In this document: piece after piece, positions 8,364 to 27,112 of the stretch
How the letters are laid out: each line of letters begins with the position of its first letter
Position numbering within the stretch: position 1 is the first letter of the stretch
IMG/VR virus record: IMGVR_UViG_3300044825_002344
Coordinates: 1-41,518 of that record
Origin: a virus
Direction: 5' to 3' (one strand)
Length of the DNA: 41,518 nucleotides
The notes under the pieces: generated by a model
Database searches by the model: none
Told to the model about the DNA's origin: nothing
What the model saw: the letters and a program-made list of their open reading frames with translations, nothing else
Translations under genes and position numbers: made by a program

Positions 8364-8864
8364 CTAAATGCCAATCTCAATCCAGGAATGTCCTTTTTCC
8401 GGTTCAAAGTATGGTTTTCTCTCCTCATACACAGATTTCCAGTAAATCAAAATCCTGGTTAAACGCCAAAGTAAGGCGCGGAAGCAATCAAATGCAGCAA
8501 AGTTTTCGTCTGATGGCGAAACTGACGTGCCATGAGGAACGATATAAATTGGCACTCGTTTACCCCAGATGGAAATGGCAATCAGCATTGACCGATAACA
8601 ATGAAACATATCAGTCACGACGTAAAGTCGCGTGCAGCCTAATGCTTTTAGTAGCTTATAGGTATGTGTGAAATTGGTTACCGTATCCCATGCTGCGCGA
8701 TTGCTAATAATCCTGGTTGGATCGATATCGGCATCTTTGTAATACCTCATATAATCTCCGCTTTCAGTAGATACGACAATCTTGGCATTAGGTAGGTCTC
8801 GTGCGAGCGCAGCAGCAGTCTGCGCCCGCTCAGAATTACCGCCAAGATGTAGAATAATGTCCAC
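8364..8864 (-). CDS. DUF218 (YdcF/SanA-like) domain protein
   Basis: This 166-aa product has the DUF218 pattern: an N-terminal strand and glycine turn (IILHLGGNSERAQTAA), a Rossmann-like second strand (NAKIVVSTE), and the diagnostic VVTDMFHCYRSMLIA block that matches the family's strand-xxH-x-R motif. Bacterial members (SanA, YdcF, ElyC) are linked to envelope or peptidoglycan precursor homeostasis. YdcF binds S-adenosylmethionine. The protein is shorter than typical bacterial members and has no membrane anchor, so a soluble catalytic-like core remains. Its position inside a fibre block suggests a cargo gene. The precise reaction is unknown. Confidence 0.7.
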   Translation of the reverse strand: MDIILHLGGNSERAQTAAALARDLPNAKIVVSTESGDYMRYYKDADIDPTRIISNRAAWDTVTNFTHTYKLLKALGCTRLYVVTDMFHCYRSMLIAISIWGKRVPIYIVPHGTSVSPSDENFAAFDCFRALLWRLTRILIYWKSVYEERKPYFEPEKGHSWIEIGI

Positions 8865-15604: not shown

Positions 15605-16201
15605 ATGCTTCCGGATCCGCCTAGTAGTGCAGAGTGGTTAGACATTCTGGAAACCGTAGATTATGTACCGATTCCTGATGCAGCAAAGACATATCAAAGC
15701 TATCGGTTTACTGATTTAGATATAACTGCTGTCACAATCAGCAACTATAGAGAGAAGCTGGTGCCGTCACTCGCCAAACAAGTCGAAGTATTCGTCCCAC
15801 CAATTGGAAGTTTTGAGACGCTTGACCTGCAAAGGTATCTGGAGCTGGTCTGTAGCTATGAAACCAGCACAACTGATCTGATGATGGGATTATCGCTGGC
15901 CGATCAAATTAGGATCACATTCAGCGATATGAAAACAAGTACAATTTGTGACAGGTTTCCAGAAATTGGCCTTGCCGAAAAACGACGCTATCGTTGCGTG
16001 GCCGAGTACTTAATTCGCCAAGGGGAATTGACAAAGCTGCGAGATGAAAACGGAAAACTGATCAAAAAAATTGGCAACATGCAAAAAGCTGTTGTTCTAT
16101 ACAAGCCACTGCCAAAACTGCTTGAGACGTTGAAGAGGGCCGGTTTAAGCCATCTCATCAAGCAACAAGAAGATAACCGGGAAAATCCCGATCAATCTTG
16201 A
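15605..16201 (+). CDS. Hypothetical protein, 198 aa, possible DNA-binding
   Basis: It follows the previous gene by 3 bp. The C-terminal half has a plausible winged-HTH pattern: CDRFPEIGLAEKRRYRCVAE and YLIRQGELTKLRDENG, followed by a GKLIKKIGNMQK basic stretch. The N-terminal half is a mixed fold without a known motif. It is probably a regulator or accessory replication protein of the accessory island, but this is inferred only from helix patterns. The ORF is clean and closely packed. Confidence 0.5.
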   Translation: MLPDPPSSAEWLDILETVDYVPIPDAAKTYQSYRFTDLDITAVTISNYREKLVPSLAKQVEVFVPPIGSFETLDLQRYLELVCSYETSTTDLMMGLSLADQIRITFSDMKTSTICDRFPEIGLAEKRRYRCVAEYLIRQGELTKLRDENGKLIKKIGNMQKAVVLYKPLPKLLETLKRAGLSHLIKQQEDNRENPDQS

Positions 16202-19542: not shown

Positions 19543-20337
19543 ATGCCAGAAAATCACCTGCTTTCTTCATTCATGCGTGGCGCAGTAGGTGGCGTCAGTA
19601 AGGCGCAGCTAATCCGAACATTCAAAGAACAGCATGGATGGACAGATGCGGATATTTCACAGGCAATTCAACTTTGTAGTTTTAAACAGAAACCTAAACA
19701 AGTAGATTACGCAAGTTTCTATAATCTTCCTGTCACCAAAAAAGGCAAACGCATCTTTTACCCGTTTACTCAGATTTACACAATTGACAATTTCTTGACG
19801 GCACGAGAATGCAATGATCTAATCAAAATTATCGATGGAAATTTACGACCATCTACGGTGTCAGACCCAAAAGATTCTTGCACAGTGTCGGATTATCGCA
19901 CCAGCAAAACGGCAGATTTGCACTACTTTGAAGATCCTTTTTACCTAGAAATAGATAAAAAGCTGACTGATGCACTGGAAATTAGTCCTTTCTTGGGAGA
20001 GACAATGCAGGCGCAGCGGTACGAACCAGGACAGTATTATAAAGAGCACTGGGATTTCTTTTCTCCTACCACAAAAGAATATAAAGTTTACTGCGATTGG
20101 ATGGGTCAACGTACCTGGACCACCATGATCTATCTAAATGATGTAAAAGAAGGAGGTGAAACTTACTTTAAATATCTAAAACTACGTCTAAAGCCGAAGC
20201 AAGGCACACTCGTTGCTTGGAACAATCTTTATAAAAACGGCCTACCTAATCCTAAGACTATGCACGAAGCTTGTTCACCAATTAGTGGAAATAAGTATGT
20301 AATTACCAAGTGGTGGAGAAGTTGGCCGCTGATTTAA
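19543..20337 (+). CDS. 2-oxoglutarate/Fe(II)-dependent oxygenase (prolyl 4-hydroxylase-like)
   Basis: A 264-aa protein with the prolyl 4-hydroxylase double-stranded beta helix. The Fe-binding triad is H169-x-D171 (EHWDFF) and H241 (TMHEACSP). K251, within KYVITKWWR, is positioned to hold 2-oxoglutarate. QRYEPGQYY and TMIYLNDVKEGGETYF are typical family strands. The N-terminal about 75 residues form a helical extension (SKAQLIRTFKEQHGW). It is the only plus-strand gene in this part, with minus-strand genes on both sides and a 4-bp tail overlap with the next. It probably hydroxylates a protein or a phage/host molecule; the target is unknown. Confidence 0.88.
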   Translation: MPENHLLSSFMRGAVGGVSKAQLIRTFKEQHGWTDADISQAIQLCSFKQKPKQVDYASFYNLPVTKKGKRIFYPFTQIYTIDNFLTARECNDLIKIIDGNLRPSTVSDPKDSCTVSDYRTSKTADLHYFEDPFYLEIDKKLTDALEISPFLGETMQAQRYEPGQYYKEHWDFFSPTTKEYKVYCDWMGQRTWTTMIYLNDVKEGGETYFKYLKLRLKPKQGTLVAWNNLYKNGLPNPKTMHEACSPISGNKYVITKWWRSWPLI

Positions 20338-20678
20338 TTGGCCGCGATGCTGAATTTAACGACAGCATTAGTTCCACCAGTCTCTTTTAAAAAATTACCT
20401 CTAAGAAAGCCTACTGGCGCACCGTTCACATAATAAGGATAAGTGCCATTTTCTGTGATTGTATTGGAAATGAGTGGCCCATAATTAGTGCCGTCAATAC
20501 TCCCATCCAACCGCACAACTACGGATGTGTCGATATTGCTCACAGTTGCAATCAATGTATAGTTACGCGTTGAGAGGTAATTTGTCACCAGTACATCGAC
20601 AGCCTCAGTGACTCCTGGAGAAGTCAGCTCTGGAAAATTCTGAACAAGAGTCTGCTGATAACTCTCAAAATAACCCAT
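20334..20678 (-). CDS. Small virion-type protein, 114 aa
   Basis: A beta-rich protein (NYTLIATVSNIDTSVVVRLD, GSIDGTNYGPLIS, GFLRGNFLKE) that resembles small phage structural or fibre-accessory proteins with a Greek-key-like pattern. It is convergent with the plus-strand oxygenase (4-bp overlap) and ends the minus-strand fibre cluster. There is no catalytic motif. An inverted repeat at 20726-20754 lies in the 83-bp gap upstream of it. Confidence 0.55.
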   Translation of the reverse strand: MGYFESYQQTLVQNFPELTSPGVTEAVDVLVTNYLSTRNYTLIATVSNIDTSVVVRLDGSIDGTNYGPLISNTITENGTYPYYVNGAPVGFLRGNFLKETGGTNAVVKFSIAAN

Positions 20679-20761: not shown

Positions 20762-22189
<1,428 letters not shown>

Positions 22190-22191
22190 TT

Positions 22192-22401
22192 TTATGTCTT
22201 AGAAACAGTAAGCAGGTTGTTACTTCCGTCATATGTCAAAACAAGCGTTGCCACAGTGACACCAGCGGAGCCGCCTACCTTATAAATTACTCCTGTCAGA
22301 TTGCTGCCTGTGTAAGAACAGGATACATAATCGTGAATTGGGATATTCAAGCCTGTCATTGTAATAACAGGCTTTGTTCCGCTATTTACATTGACAGTCA
22401 T
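22192..22401 (-). CDS. Small beta protein, 69 aa, fibre-associated
   Basis: The product has alternating beta strands (KPVITMTGLNIPIHDYVSCS, TGVIYKVGGSAGVTVATLVL, LLTVSKT) with no helix or membrane segment. It is translated 2 bp above the collagen-like fibre and is probably a fibre accessory or tip subunit. A promoter at 22424-22452 precedes it, so it is the first gene of this unit. No family is recognised. Confidence 0.55.
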   Translation of the reverse strand: MTVNVNSGTKPVITMTGLNIPIHDYVSCSYTGSNLTGVIYKVGGSAGVTVATLVLTYDGSNNLLTVSKT

Positions 22402-22423: not shown

Positions 22424-22452
22424 ATTATAGCTTTTTAAGGACTATTTGCCAA
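22424..22452 (-). promoter_or_regulatory. Sigma-70-like promoter
   Basis: On the minus strand, TTGGCA (-35) lies 17 bp upstream of TATAAT (-10). The -10 is 23 nt before the ATG at 22401. The -35 sits inside the 3' end of the dps-like gene. This is the best promoter match I found in the window and would drive the 69-aa gene and the collagen-like fibre. Confidence 0.55.
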
Positions 22453-22906
22453 GATTGCTTTTGATTAGCCATTGAAATTTCTTGTGCGTTCGCCCACGTT
22501 CAACAGCCAAATCCAATGTCAATTGGTCATCAATTGTCTCTGCCATCGATGCTAACTCTCGGAATCGGTCTGCTAACATATTGTGATTTGTTGCAAGCTG
22601 TCTAAGAATGACTTCTTGAGCAAAACAGTCTTCTAAGGGGACCCCTGGCATATTAGAGTAAGTCAAATCTTCTACGGTTTTGGGAGTGCCGATATCGAGA
22701 GATCGGATATGTTCAGCAACAACGTCAATGCCTTCTTGCATTTCTTCGTAAATATCTTGCGTTAACTTATGAATTGAATAGAATTTACCGCCCATTAAAC
22801 CCCAATGCACCAGCAAGGTCTGCTGATAAACGTACATTGAATCGCGCAAACACTGAACAAGCTGCGAATAACAAGTTGTTGTCTTTTCTGAAAGTTGCTT
22901 TGCCAT
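22442..22906 (-). CDS. dps: Dps-like ferritin / DNA protection during starvation protein
   Basis: The 154-aa product fits Dps: LLVHWGLMGGKFYSIHKLTQ, then EEMQEGIDVVAEHIRSL. The ferroxidase set H34, H46, D61, E65 matches the E. coli Dps ligands H51, H63, D78, E82 by spacing; the D67 position is Gln50. Length, helix pattern and a C-terminal Lys-rich tail fit a 12-mer shell that oxidises and stores iron and binds DNA. This is unusual cargo for a cyanophage and may protect phage DNA or scavenge iron under host oxidative stress. It is in a minus-strand run with a small basic conserved protein upstream. Confidence 0.82.
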   Translation of the reverse strand: MAKQLSEKTTTCYSQLVQCLRDSMYVYQQTLLVHWGLMGGKFYSIHKLTQDIYEEMQEGIDVVAEHIRSLDIGTPKTVEDLTYSNMPGVPLEDCFAQEVILRQLATNHNMLADRFRELASMAETIDDQLTLDLAVERGRTHKKFQWLIKSNLGK

Positions 22907-23183: not shown

Positions 23184-23378
23184 TCAGACTTGAATAGCAC
23201 CAGAGCGAACCATACTGGCGATATCCTGCGGTTCTCTTCCTTTTAAGGCGTAATCACCCTCTGGAGGTACGCGCTCATCTTGTAACTCTTGAATAACCTC
23301 TTCAACGCCTTTAGCGTAATCGGTCAGAAATCGTTGTGGGTCAGGTCGCGACCCAGCCGATGTAGCAGTCATTGGCAA
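23184..23378 (-). CDS. Small hypothetical protein, 64 aa
   Basis: A helical product (RFLTDYAKGVEEVIQELQ, then PPEGDYALKGREPQDIA). The start lies inside the 3' end of the HNH gene (38-bp overlap) and the stop is 2 bp from the next gene. Tight packing supports it being translated. No family recognised. Confidence 0.5.
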   Translation of the reverse strand: MPMTATSAGSRPDPQRFLTDYAKGVEEVIQELQDERVPPEGDYALKGREPQDIASMVRSGAIQV

Positions 23379-23760
23379 TATACGGAACAGCAGGTCCCGC
23401 AGAGGATAACTTTATGGAGCAGGGTTTTTGCTCCATCCATTTGGTGATTCTAGCAAGCCTTTCCTCGCTGTAATTGGGGTGATCTTCACTTAACCAATCC
23501 TGAAGTAATGTGCTTGCTTTGGCACGATTACAGTTGCAACAAGCAGCACACATATTGTTCTTGACACTGTGGCCGCCCTTGTGCTTTGGCACAATATGAT
23601 CAATTGTCGCAGTATTTTCGTCTAATTGTTTATCACAGTAAGCACATTTCCAACCCCAAGACTCAAAGATGTGCTCTCTAAATTTTCGACGGGCAAGTTT
23701 CGGAGTGAGAACGATTAGGTTCGCTAATAGGTCTTGCTCGCAATGGAACATGATTGTCAT
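23341..23760 (-). CDS. HNH endonuclease
   Basis: A 139-aa product with an intact HNH finger: CAYC (C39, C42), DHIVPKHKGG (D54-H55 catalytic region), NNMCAACCNC (C74 and C77 as the second pair, N69). The first 30 residues are helical. It could cleave DNA as a homing enzyme, a packaging co-nuclease or a defence nuclease. It is upstream of a basic phage protein and dps on the minus strand. A hairpin (ATGCACC/GGTGCAT at 23759-23788) includes the start codon and may limit translation. Confidence 0.88.
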   Translation of the reverse strand: MTIMFHCEQDLLANLIVLTPKLARRKFREHIFESWGWKCAYCDKQLDENTATIDHIVPKHKGGHSVKNNMCAACCNCNRAKASTLLQDWLSEDHPNYSEERLARITKWMEQKPCSIKLSSAGPAVPYIANDCYIGWVAT

Positions 23761-23821: not shown

Positions 23822-23895
23822 GCCCGAGTGACCCAGCGGAACGAGGTACTCGACTTAAAATCGAGCAGTCGGCGGTTCGAATCCGCCCTCGGGTA
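23822..23895 (+). tRNA. tRNA-Leu (UAA), short variable loop
   Basis: A 74-nt cloverleaf: acceptor GCCCGAG/CTCGGGT (one G-U), anticodon arm CTCGA-CTTAAAA-TCGAG with anticodon UAA, T arm GGCGG-TTCGAAT-CCGCC. The D stem has three pairs, as in class II tRNAs. The variable region is only 5 nt (CAGTC), whereas tRNA-Leu normally has a long variable arm. The 3' CCA is not encoded. It reads UUA codons. Confidence 0.85.
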
Positions 23896-23898
23896 TTA

Positions 23899-23970
23899 CG
23901 GGGTGTAGCGCAGCGGTAGCGCGTTTGGTTTGGGTCCAAAAAGTCACAGGTTCGATCCCTGTCACCCCGA
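23899..23970 (+). tRNA. tRNA-Pro (UGG)
   Basis: A 72-nt cloverleaf: acceptor CGGGGTG/CACCCCG (7 bp), D arm GCGC-AGCGGTA-GCGC, anticodon arm TTTGG-TTTGGGT-CCAAA with anticodon UGG, T arm ACAGG-TTCGATC-CCTGT. CCA is not encoded. It lies 3 nt after the tRNA-Leu and reads proline CCA and, by wobble, other CCN codons. Confidence 0.95.
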
Positions 23971-23972
23971 TT

Positions 23973-24043
23973 GGCCCTGTAATTTAATGGTAAAATAATC
24001 GCCTTGTAAGCGATCATTCTCGGTTCAAATCCGAGCGGGGCCT
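23973..24043 (+). tRNA. tRNA-Thr (UGU)
   Basis: A 71-nt cloverleaf: acceptor GGCCCTG/CGGGGCC (with a U-G pair), anticodon arm ATCGC-CTTGTAA-GCGAT with anticodon UGU, T arm CTCGG-TTCAAAT-CCGAG, discriminator U. CCA is not encoded. The last base meets the stop codon of the minus-strand ORF at 24043. It reads ACA and other ACN codons. Confidence 0.92.
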
Positions 24044-24279: not shown

Positions 24280-24511
24280 TGTTTACAGCTTCATCATCAG
24301 CGGGCTCATCAAGATTCTTTTTTAAAATATCAAGAATCTCCATGGCGCCTTGTACCTTTAAATAACCTTCTTTTGTGGTGATGAGGGCTGTTTCGGCTGC
24401 ACGGATATCATTTGCAAGCTTTGCAAGCTGTGCTTTCAACCCGTTTTCCAATTCTTCAATTTTTTCAAGCATGGTTTTAACGGCAGTGACAGAAGTATAC
24501 CTAAACTTCAC
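24269..24511 (-). CDS. Coiled-coil small protein, 80 aa
   Basis: Starts at a GTG overlapping the stop of the endolysin gene (GTGA), so it is coupled to it. The sequence is a coiled coil (MLEKIEELENGLKAQLAKLA, then NDIRAAETALITTKEGYLKV). Its position just after the endolysin suggests a lysis or virion accessory role, but no membrane segment is seen, which is against a holin. Confidence 0.6.
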   Translation of the reverse strand: MKFRYTSVTAVKTMLEKIEELENGLKAQLAKLANDIRAAETALITTKEGYLKVQGAMEILDILKKNLDEPADDEAVNIAL

Positions 24512-25758
24512 TTCCTGCGGAAGTCAATCCAACACCAGCCATTCGCACCGCCGCTGACAAAAAAACGCGGATTCATGTTTTTGAAGCTGTATTTAATGTT
24601 TTTACCAGCGACGGCACCTGTAGAGGCCCATCCGCCGTTGACAAGATCCAACTCGCCAAACGGATCCTGCACTAACCAATGCGTTTTGTCATAACCAGTA
24701 ATAACAACGAAGTGCCCGCCGCCAGTAGGGTGAGAAACAGTTCCATGATGAAGAATGCCGGCAACAACAGGGAGTCCCTTGTCAATTTGCTCTTTGACAT
24801 CTTGCTCATCCGCAGATAGCGTGAATTTAGCGTAAACGTCTAATTCTTCAAGGGCCTTGAAATGTGGCTCGCGGTGCGTCGTATCTCCGTATTTATTGAC
24901 GATTTTTAAATAGTCTAGGTCGTCGTTAATGCCAGGTACATCGAGATATCGCAGACACATGGCAATTGAACTGGTTTGACACTGGCGCCAGCCTTCTGGG
25001 CCATTGTCACGCTGGTAGAAGTAAGGAAAATTGCGGAGGTAACGCAGATCTCCCTGGATCGCATAAGGTTTAATACCAGTTTCGGTGAGCAGTCCGTCCC
25101 AGTGGGCGTCAAAAACCCACCACTTACCAAGGCCAAAACCAAGCTCAAGAAATGTGTGCTTATCCTTTCTGTCTAAAACCTTACATTCACGGATTGTCCG
25201 TCCCTGGTGAACCTTGGCTTTCTCATCGTTAGGTAGTTCAGCCGATGGGATTGGTTTTTTCTTAAGCCAAGTTTGCTGCTTGGAGGTAATGGTAATCATG
25301 CCAGTCTTAGGTGTCGGTGGATCTTGACAGAATAATTCAACTTCAGCCGAACGCCGACGATCTAACCCCGCTAAAACTTTGCCACCTGCTCCTTTATTCC
25401 AGCGTGGCAATTCCTCTTTTGCGACTGTATTTGGGTCTTCTTTGTTGTTTAAACGCTTTAATAACGTTGATTCCGCAAATGCACCTTCGCCGATGTTATA
25501 GACGAAGGATACTAAAGCGTCGAATTGAGTTTGGTTGAGAGGTGTTTTTGCATGACGAAGCACAGCTTGCTCAAATCGTTGCAGGTCTTTACGCAGAACA
25601 ACCTCAGCTTGCTGTTCAGTATATCGCTGCCCTGGCTTTACATCTGGACCAGTGTGGCCGTAGCCAATTGTTAAAACTCCAGCAGGGCAGATATAACTTG
25701 TCAATGACAGCCCCTCAAACGATTTAATTAAATCAACGCCAGCCTGCGATGTCTTCAT
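24508..25758 (-). CDS. Modular endolysin: GH24 muramidase plus C39-like cysteine peptidase
   Basis: A 416-aa enzyme with two cutting domains. Residues 1-145 are a GH24 lysozyme with the endolysin signature E-8aa-C-5aa-T: E15, C24, T30 in FEGLSLTSYICPAGVLTIGYGHT (E15 in FEG, T30 in LTIGYGH). Residues about 150-235 are a linker with SH3-like strands (KTGMITITSKQQTWLKK). Residues about 235-410 are a papain-like C39/NlpC-type peptidase: C260 (QCQTSSIAMCL), H349 (GGGHFVVITGYD), D365 (QDPFGE). It should hydrolyse both glycan and peptide bonds of peptidoglycan at lysis. Its neighbours downstream are coiled-coil and small genes. No signal peptide, so a holin is needed elsewhere. Confidence 0.9.
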   Translation of the reverse strand: MKTSQAGVDLIKSFEGLSLTSYICPAGVLTIGYGHTGPDVKPGQRYTEQQAEVVLRKDLQRFEQAVLRHAKTPLNQTQFDALVSFVYNIGEGAFAESTLLKRLNNKEDPNTVAKEELPRWNKGAGGKVLAGLDRRRSAEVELFCQDPPTPKTGMITITSKQQTWLKKKPIPSAELPNDEKAKVHQGRTIRECKVLDRKDKHTFLELGFGLGKWWVFDAHWDGLLTETGIKPYAIQGDLRYLRNFPYFYQRDNGPEGWRQCQTSSIAMCLRYLDVPGINDDLDYLKIVNKYGDTTHREPHFKALEELDVYAKFTLSADEQDVKEQIDKGLPVVAGILHHGTVSHPTGGGHFVVITGYDKTHWLVQDPFGELDLVNGGWASTGAVAGKNIKYSFKNMNPRFFVSGGANGWCWIDFRRK

Positions 25759-25776: not shown

Positions 25777-26484
25777 TTAACGTGCTTTGTCCCAAGCGCA
25801 GTGCGCTCTTTGACCATCTTGGAGCACATAATGGAAAAAGATATTGTGATAATAACAAGATTTTGCTTTTTTAAATAGACCTGCTTTCTCATAGGGCATG
25901 GGAGTTCTCTCGTGTGGCCTCTCTGCACCTTTGTATAAAATTCCATCACCTGGAGATAGATGAAGATCTTTCCATAACCCTGGCACCAAAATTTCGTTTT
26001 TATTTTCATCTGTATAAGTATCTGGCGTTTTAATACGGAAAGCCCAAGGTTCTTTTAAATCAGTAGAAACATGTACACTAACTGAAATTTCACACGCATC
26101 CCTGTCAACATGACGCTCAAGCCTCATGCCAGAACGATAAAACCTGTCGTAATAATAGGTATTGTAAAGTTTTCGGCCAATGATTTTTTCTAACTTTAAG
26201 CGTATCTCACTATGAATTGATCGGTATTGTGGGTGCCAATAACGTGCAGTGGACCCTTCTACTTGATTTTCTACAGGTAAATGCTCAAATTGATCTAATT
26301 TATTTCCCCAGTAATTTAACTGACCGCTAATTCTCGGGACAGGATGATATAACTCTCCTGCATTCCACAACTCTTTAATCACTAAATACCCGTTTTTTTC
26401 AAACTCTTCATTATGCGTCCACGCCGTTCCGGTGTTTTGTTTTTCAAGCAAATCAATCTGTTCTTCTGTCATTTTTTCTAACAT
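25777..26484 (-). CDS. 2-oxoglutarate/Fe(II)-dependent oxygenase-like protein
   Basis: Start at the ATG at 26484, supported by GAGG six nt upstream; an earlier ATG would overlap the upstream gene. The 235-aa product has H125-x-D127 (ERHVDRD), a beta-helix core with GDGILYKGAE, and H191 (RPHERT) as the likely distal Fe ligand. NIFFHYVLQDG completes the pattern of phage oxygenases with a YxG...H and FHYV ending. The N-terminal helix (MTEEQIDLLEKQ) and the middle (YYYDRFYRSGMRLE) fit the same family. It lies 7 bp after another oxygenase. Confidence 0.78.
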   Translation of the reverse strand: MLEKMTEEQIDLLEKQNTGTAWTHNEEFEKNGYLVIKELWNAGELYHPVPRISGQLNYWGNKLDQFEHLPVENQVEGSTARYWHPQYRSIHSEIRLKLEKIIGRKLYNTYYYDRFYRSGMRLERHVDRDACEISVSVHVSTDLKEPWAFRIKTPDTYTDENKNEILVPGLWKDLHLSPGDGILYKGAERPHERTPMPYEKAGLFKKAKSCYYHNIFFHYVLQDGQRAHCAWDKAR

Positions 26485-26491
26485 ATTTACC

Positions 26492-27112
26492 TCACTTCCA
26501 ACGGGGACCGACAGTCCACCCAACAAGAGATTTTCGAGTTCCTTTTGTAACTTTAAGAACCCTATGTTGAGTCCTAGAGTCGAATAGAATCATGGTACCC
26601 CTTTTACGTGGTGCCATGTAACTTTTATTCGATTCGTCTAAAAGTTGCAGGTTACCTCCAGCATAATCATCTTCATGAGAAAGCTGAAGGACAAAAGAAA
26701 GTTTGCGTACAAGTTCAATGTTTTCATTTAAGAAATCTTGAGCCAATCCTTCTTGACGATTTCCAACGCTTACAGGTTTGTACTGCGTTGCAATCCCTGC
26801 ATCGTTGTGCCAACCGTAAAATTGACCGACATCGTATTTAGTAAACTGCATCGATTCACCGTCAATGCAGCGTAAATCATATAAAAAATTCTCTCGATTA
26901 GCGCGTTCAATGTAGTGCCAAATAAATCCACCTACCCAATGCGTAGTTGGAATCCAAGCATTTTGCGAATTTCTTTTGTCTTTGTTAAGGGCATCTCCGT
27001 GCAATTTAGAGTCACCCATCTGCTCATCAAATTTTGACGTTAAGTCCCGTTCTATGATGTCTACTACGTCTTCGGGCAGGTCGGTAAAATACCAAATCGA
27101 TTGAAATGCCAT
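26492..27112 (-). CDS. 2-oxoglutarate/Fe(II)-dependent prolyl 4-hydroxylase-like oxygenase (PiuC type)
   Basis: A 206-aa PKHD/P4H-type protein. H102-x-D104 (WHNDAG), H183 (TQHRVLKVTKGTR) and R193 complete the Fe and 2-oxoglutarate set. LQLSHEDDYAGGNLQLLDE and RGTMILFDSR are the usual strands. It is close in shape to PiuC-like hydroxylases of cyanophages. An inverted repeat at 27121-27145 and a TTGACA element are right upstream, so transcription may be regulated. It starts a two-gene unit with the second oxygenase. Confidence 0.9.
   Translation of the reverse strand: MAFQSIWYFTDLPEDVVDIIERDLTSKFDEQMGDSKLHGDALNKDKRNSQNAWIPTTHWVGGFIWHYIERANRENFLYDLRCIDGESMQFTKYDVGQFYGWHNDAGIATQYKPVSVGNRQEGLAQDFLNENIELVRKLSFVLQLSHEDDYAGGNLQLLDESNKSYMAPRKRGTMILFDSRTQHRVLKVTKGTRKSLVGWTVGPRWK

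Follow-up and report, generated by a model that had tools for sequence, protein, structure and literature searches.

The window analysed here is the whole 41,518-nucleotide stretch of the viral record IMGVR_UViG_3300044825_002344. A complete ORF with an ATG start on its minus strand encodes a protein of the Dps family (Table 1). The start of this gene lies 5 bases from the stop of the upstream gene. A slot of about 2.6 kb is filled by the Dps gene and three others, which encode proteins of 69 and 114 residues and a glycine-rich fibre-type protein. PADLOC gave no match at E ≤0.01 for four slot proteins.

Table 1. Genes in and around the slot that carries the Dps gene of the window.
Feature	Position	Strand	Remarks
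2OG-Fe(II) oxygenase	19543..20337	+	delimits the slot on its right; convergent with 20334-20678
114-aa protein	20334..20678	-	no family match
Glycine-rich collagen-like tail-fibre-type protein	20762..22189	-	in the variable segment
69-aa protein	22192..22401	-	directly downstream of Dps; PHROG 26903
Dps-family mini-ferritin, 154 aa	22442..22906	-	ORF, Pfam, PHROG, PDB, model, E. coli Dps alignment
Upstream neighbour, 89 aa	22912..23181	-	PHROG 7595 (2e-17); DUF5754 below cut-off; left border of the slot
HNH endonuclease	23341..23760	-	conserved left neighbour of the slot
Endolysin (phage lysozyme + C39-like peptidase)	24508..25758	-	starts the conserved block

Other features of the window deserve mention. 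Three tRNA genes (Leu-taa, Pro-tgg, Thr-tgt) stand close together at 23822-24043 on the plus strand, opposite to that of the endolysin and HNH genes. Two overlapping genes, 25777-26526 and 26492-27112, carry the PHROG labels ferrochelatase and 2OG-Fe(II) oxygenase, respectively. The ferrochelatase label looks doubtful, as Pfam gives nothing for that gene at E ≤0.05. Further host-type cargo includes an S-adenosylmethionine decarboxylase (407-865) and a DUF218 protein (8364-8864) with a relative in phage S-SRM01 (41%).

Identification and fold of the Dps protein

The preliminary description of this DNA had proposed a Dps-like ferritin. This identity is borne out by matches to Pfam Ferritin PF00210 (6e-12, 46.1 bits, above the curated cut-off of 24.5), to PHROG 3636 (3.7e-20, labelled 'DNA binding protein') and to 58 distinct PDB sequences at E ≤0.01. 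Nearly all of the latter are named Dps or mini-ferritin; the top match is P. aeruginosa Dps PA0962 (8ff9, 6e-14), and the lowest-ranked one is a designed scaffold fusion. Because the homology rests on these Pfam, PHROG and PDB matches, it is independent of the ligand motif discussed below. With the NCBIfam Dps equivalog model NF006975, the protein scores 48.2 bits, below the cut-off of 114.

An AlphaFold model was calculated from 23 fairly close sequences of the window and of viral contigs. It describes a monomer and therefore lacks the inter-subunit site. The model (mean pLDDT 91, pTM 0.87) contains helices 2-36, 42-69, 78-81, 97-124 and 128-150, in the order typical of Dps: four long helices and the short BC helix (78-81), with no fifth (E) helix. 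Searches with Foldseek ranked Dps chains first, with TM scores of about 0.8-0.9. A second structure aligner also placed Dps chains first, the best being T. elongatus Dps (Z 20.0, rmsd 1.6, 150 aligned residues), whose Z score is tied with several other Dps and exceeds the helical-bundle background quoted for the aligner. The assignment had been staked on profile homology to Dps and on a predicted four-helix ferritin bundle, and both are found. Judged by sequence and predicted structure, the product of 22442-22906 is a genuine Dps-family mini-ferritin.

The structure search also retrieved Dps-like domains in four uncultured-phage proteins of 290-763 residues (BFVD A0A6J7XDU5, A0A6J7WIS1, A0A6J7WPK9 and A0A6J5RFH1). 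Three of the four are labelled prohead protease and may be fusions of Dps domains to capsid-maturation proteins.

Ferroxidase ligands and position 50

As a reference for the ligands we used E. coli K-12 Dps, translated from the MG1655 record. In the alignment, H51, H63, D67, D78 and E82 of the E. coli protein correspond to H34, H46, Q50, D61 and E65 of the window protein. The earlier reading of four ligands out of five at E. coli spacing, with a glutamine in place of D67, is exact. Within the window, the H-12-H-15-D-4-E spacing occurs in one of 217 ORFs (stop-to-stop, at least 60 aa), namely the Dps ORF, and shuffling of the Dps protein reproduces it in 91 of 200,000 trials. These two controls rule out a chance motif.

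The family set comprises 130 coding sequences, corresponding to 65 distinct proteins, or 66 with the window protein. H34, W35, H46, D61 and E65 are invariant in all 66. Because the ferroxidase residues are fixed, oxidation of iron by the protein is suggested. The invariant D61 is the canonical aspartate at E. coli position 78. This rules out a cyanobacterial His-type ferroxidase centre, which according to passages of PMC6675082 is defined by a histidine at that position.

Position 50 behaves differently. Its commonest residue is E (34 of the 66 family proteins), followed by Q (25) and G (7), and none of the proteins has the Asp of E. coli. The equivalent residue is G in the Dps proteins of phages S-EIV1 and S-SRM01 and E in a Bacteroides phage Dps. 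Among 41 cellular Dps rows (43 minus the two phage rows L269 and L270; L152, L255 and L257 represent one gene), 35 have an acidic residue, 3 have M, 2 have Q and 1 has G. Passages of PMC6675082 describe the Glu or Asp at position 67 of canonical Dps as contacting site B through a water molecule, and report that NpDps4, with a non-binding Asn there, oxidises iron with O2. Thus, the window protein has Q50 where the canonical ferroxidase centre has D or E, but an acidic residue at 67 is not a defining feature of Dps overall, as illustrated by E, Q and G in close relatives, by M, Q and G in cellular proteins and by the Asn of NpDps4.

The preliminary description had suggested that the D-to-Q change may alter iron oxidation. 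The substitution is real; a special role for it is weakened by the variation among relatives whose other ligands are fixed, by the cellular M, Q and G residues and by the water-mediated nature of the contact. On the alignments, the change looks like variation at a tolerant, water-mediated position. In view of the family and cellular variation and of the water contact and Asn case of PMC6675082, it is not unique, and loss of activity from it is unlikely. Q50 could lower activity; it would at most alter the water-mediated site B.

Lineage and host of the phage

At E ≤1e-6, 20 of the 49 genes of the window have a match in Synechococcus phage S-EIV1 (KJ410740), and the window primase shares 35% identity with that of S-EIV1 over 98%. 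Gene content thus assigns the window to the S-EIV1 lineage, and the cyanophage context proposed earlier is supported by this relationship. The isolation host of S-EIV1 is Synechococcus sp. PCCC-A2c; by analogy with this isolate, the uncultured phage of the window presumably has a cyanobacterial host. The virus is of the freshwater cyanobacterial type. The S-EIV1 group is credited with 3.3% of marine cyanophage content in part of the text of PMC5332604. Passages of that article and of PMC9382816 mention S-EIV1 and not Dps.

The Dps slot in related genomes

A first search found 30 viral-contig loci whose Dps is 66-77% identical to that of the window, and a broader Dps query matched 289 viral-contig stretches. 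The conserved order is endolysin, HNH, DUF5754-like gene, Dps, conserved block. In 63 of 66 rows (L188-L253, drawn from the best 80 of the 289 stretches) an HNH and/or DUF5754-like gene lies upstream of Dps; the remaining three begin at Dps.

The slot is not always occupied. Dps is present in 32 of 76 non-redundant loci that span it and absent in 44; the loci, 98 before removal of near-identical ones, were gathered with four queries, two of them biased towards Dps or its slot neighbour. With a neutral query (15605-16201), Dps was found in 16 of 65 spanning loci, without deduplication and among the best 80 of 153 matches. Ten long records of slot-empty phages from the lineage were scanned end to end: nine contain no Dps, and the tenth (G149) has one outside the compared stretch. 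Absence of the gene from these 44 loci and nine long records argues that the lineage can do without Dps. Where Dps is missing and a DUF5754-like gene is present (32 loci), the latter is 7-521 bases away from the next right-hand marker.

The position of Dps relative to the DUF5754-like gene also varies, being to the right in 24 of the 32 loci and to the left in 8. Left-placed copies are more divergent (39-50% identity to the window Dps in four aligned cases). The 114-residue protein is encoded in 24 of the 32 Dps loci and in none of the 44 Dps-less loci. The two genes do not form an obligate pair, since distant members carry Dps without an adjoining 114-aa gene. As for the 69-aa gene, a homologue with 60% identity (L035, 19249-19494) adjoins the divergent S-EIV1 Dps and is followed by a fibre-type match.

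Selection and origin

The median omega (dN/dS) is 0.03 for 54 Dps pairs with dS between 0.05 and 1; for the window Dps itself, 61 of 65 comparisons give a saturated dS. These values point to strong purifying selection. In a FastTree phylogeny of 67 rows, all sampled family members, with Dps on either side of the DUF5754-like gene, group in a single clade (support 0.999). The Dps of S-EIV1 is placed outside this family, among long branches, and the backbone of the tree is weak (0.26-0.81). The pattern suggests an accessory gene with a fixed place, long inherited in the lineage and sometimes lost, gained or moved.

Among the cellular sets compared, none of them a cyanobacterial Dps set, the best matches are mostly alphaproteobacterial (about 30-38%); on this basis, a recent capture from the cyanobacterial host is not supported. 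One scan of genome contigs with a short peptide pattern gave no match.

Comparison with known Dps proteins

The window protein shares its fold, the BC helix, the H/H/D/E ligands and the tryptophan with bacterial Dps (PA0962, C. jejuni, T. elongatus, E. coli). It differs from E. coli Dps, to which it is 19% identical, by Q at 67 and by the lack of a basic tail. Cyanobacterial His-type Dps (NpDps4, TeDpsA, TlDps1) also have the same fold (Z 19.1-19.7) and, according to passages of PMC6675082 and PMC7327923, no acidic ligand at 67, but have His78 where the window protein has the canonical D61.

Two cyanophage Dps are of particular relevance. That of S-EIV1 (AHV82153.1, 'DNA-binding ferritin-like protein') comes from the same lineage, belongs to PHROG 3636 and keeps H/H/D/E with G at 67. 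However, it is 24% identical to the window Dps, has a proline-rich N-terminal extension and L in place of W, and its gene occupies another genome position, beside a sulfate adenylyltransferase gene. The Dps of S-SRM01 (MW015081.1) keeps H/W/H/D/E like the window protein, with 26.5% identity over 83%, but is encoded in another neighbourhood of a 240-kb Kyanoviridae phage. The words Dps, ferritin and starvation are all missing from the text of PMC8557907, which concerns S-SRM01.

Dps genes have also been reported for Gratiaviridae and a further 36 gut phage genomes (parts of PMC8008677) and for Lactobacillus plantarum phages (parts of PMC6669764). In the same passages these phage-borne Dps are suggested to curb stress from iron and oxygen; unlike the window phage, their carriers belong to other phage groups and infect anaerobes or lactic acid bacteria. 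A tblastn search with S-SRM01 Dps matched 141 phage records, 91 of them from Escherichia phages. Among the matches listed, several Escherichia phage genes (e.g. H63, H71, H80) are deposited as 'integrase', although they align with 96% of the Dps query. The view of phage Dps as rare cargo goes too far, given these 141 records, the 289 viral-contig stretches, the annotated Dps of S-EIV1 itself and the gut and Lactobacillus phage papers. Literature searches returned no description of the window Dps family, which is not proof of absence; the ferritin-like mention in a passage of PMC9611531 refers to a Pithovirus protein. As a branch the family is new and distinct; as a type of phage cargo it has precedents.

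Proposed function

We consider it probable that the gene encodes a Dps mini-ferritin that a cyanophage of the S-EIV1 lineage makes late in infection, and that protects by removing iron and peroxide while photosynthesis of the host continues. Late expression is likely, because the gene begins 5 bases past the upstream stop and shares its strand with the endolysin and fibre-type genes, with the endolysin on one side and the tail-type genes on the other. The protein would assemble into a dodecamer, oxidise Fe(II) with H2O2 or O2 and store the ferric product. Iron freed in the infected and still illuminated cell would thereby be kept from Fenton chemistry, sparing replicating and packaged phage DNA as well as virion proteins.

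Protection would operate through this removal of iron and peroxide and not by coating DNA. A Dps that binds DNA and directly compacts or shields that of the phage or host is an unlikely alternative; shielding of phage DNA had been considered in the preliminary description. The family name and the PHROG 3636 label speak for it, and in certain conditions DNA binding also occurs with some Dps that have no lysine tail. The window protein is, however, acidic (net charge -5, pI 5.5), the lysine-bearing N-terminal extension of E. coli Dps is missing, its first 20 residues contain two K/R, and no basic extension is seen at the C-terminus. Because the protein is acidic and has no lysine tail, DNA binding of the E. 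coli type is disfavoured, and shielding by direct contact appears less likely.

Slightly less probable is a role in the virion or its assembly, either within the particle or in fibre or capsid maturation, with iron chemistry as a secondary matter. The location of the gene, flanked by endolysin and tail-type genes of its own strand, would suit such a role. So would the viral-model search, in which Dps-like domains turn up within long proteins of phages, a part of them carrying the label prohead protease. The role is countered by ferroxidase residues that structure alone would not require and that are invariant in 66 of 66 proteins, and by the empty slot in many relatives. A more specific version seems improbable: a phage-only Dps clade in a late-infection cassette with adhesin-type genes, placed in one slot of the S-EIV1 lineage, to the left or right of a single neighbour gene, would store iron for virion maturation or tail iron loading and not for general stress.

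We regard as very improbable that Dps is an iron store that feeds phage Fe(II) enzymes instead of a detoxifier. At least two 2OG-Fe(II) oxygenase matches exist in the window (19543-20337 and 26492-27112), one of them bordering the slot, but the bordering gene is kept in 26 of 44 Dps-less loci and missing in 8 of 32 Dps loci, so that it is not tightly linked to Dps. Finally, a degenerate, non-functional copy whose ferroxidase site is broken by Q50 in place of the usual acidic residue is hardly credible against an omega of 0.03, fixed other ligands and the recurrence of this Q (25 of 66 proteins of the family, 2 of 41 cellular rows).

The discovery is a modest one, since phage Dps, including those of cyanophages, are already annotated in public records. 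It shows that a widespread lineage of cyanophages repeatedly carries iron and peroxide control as optional cargo. Genomes with and without the gene at one slot form a natural set in which to ask when a Dps gene pays, and the E, Q and G series at position 67, with the other ligands fixed, is a natural experiment on the role of this ferroxidase position.
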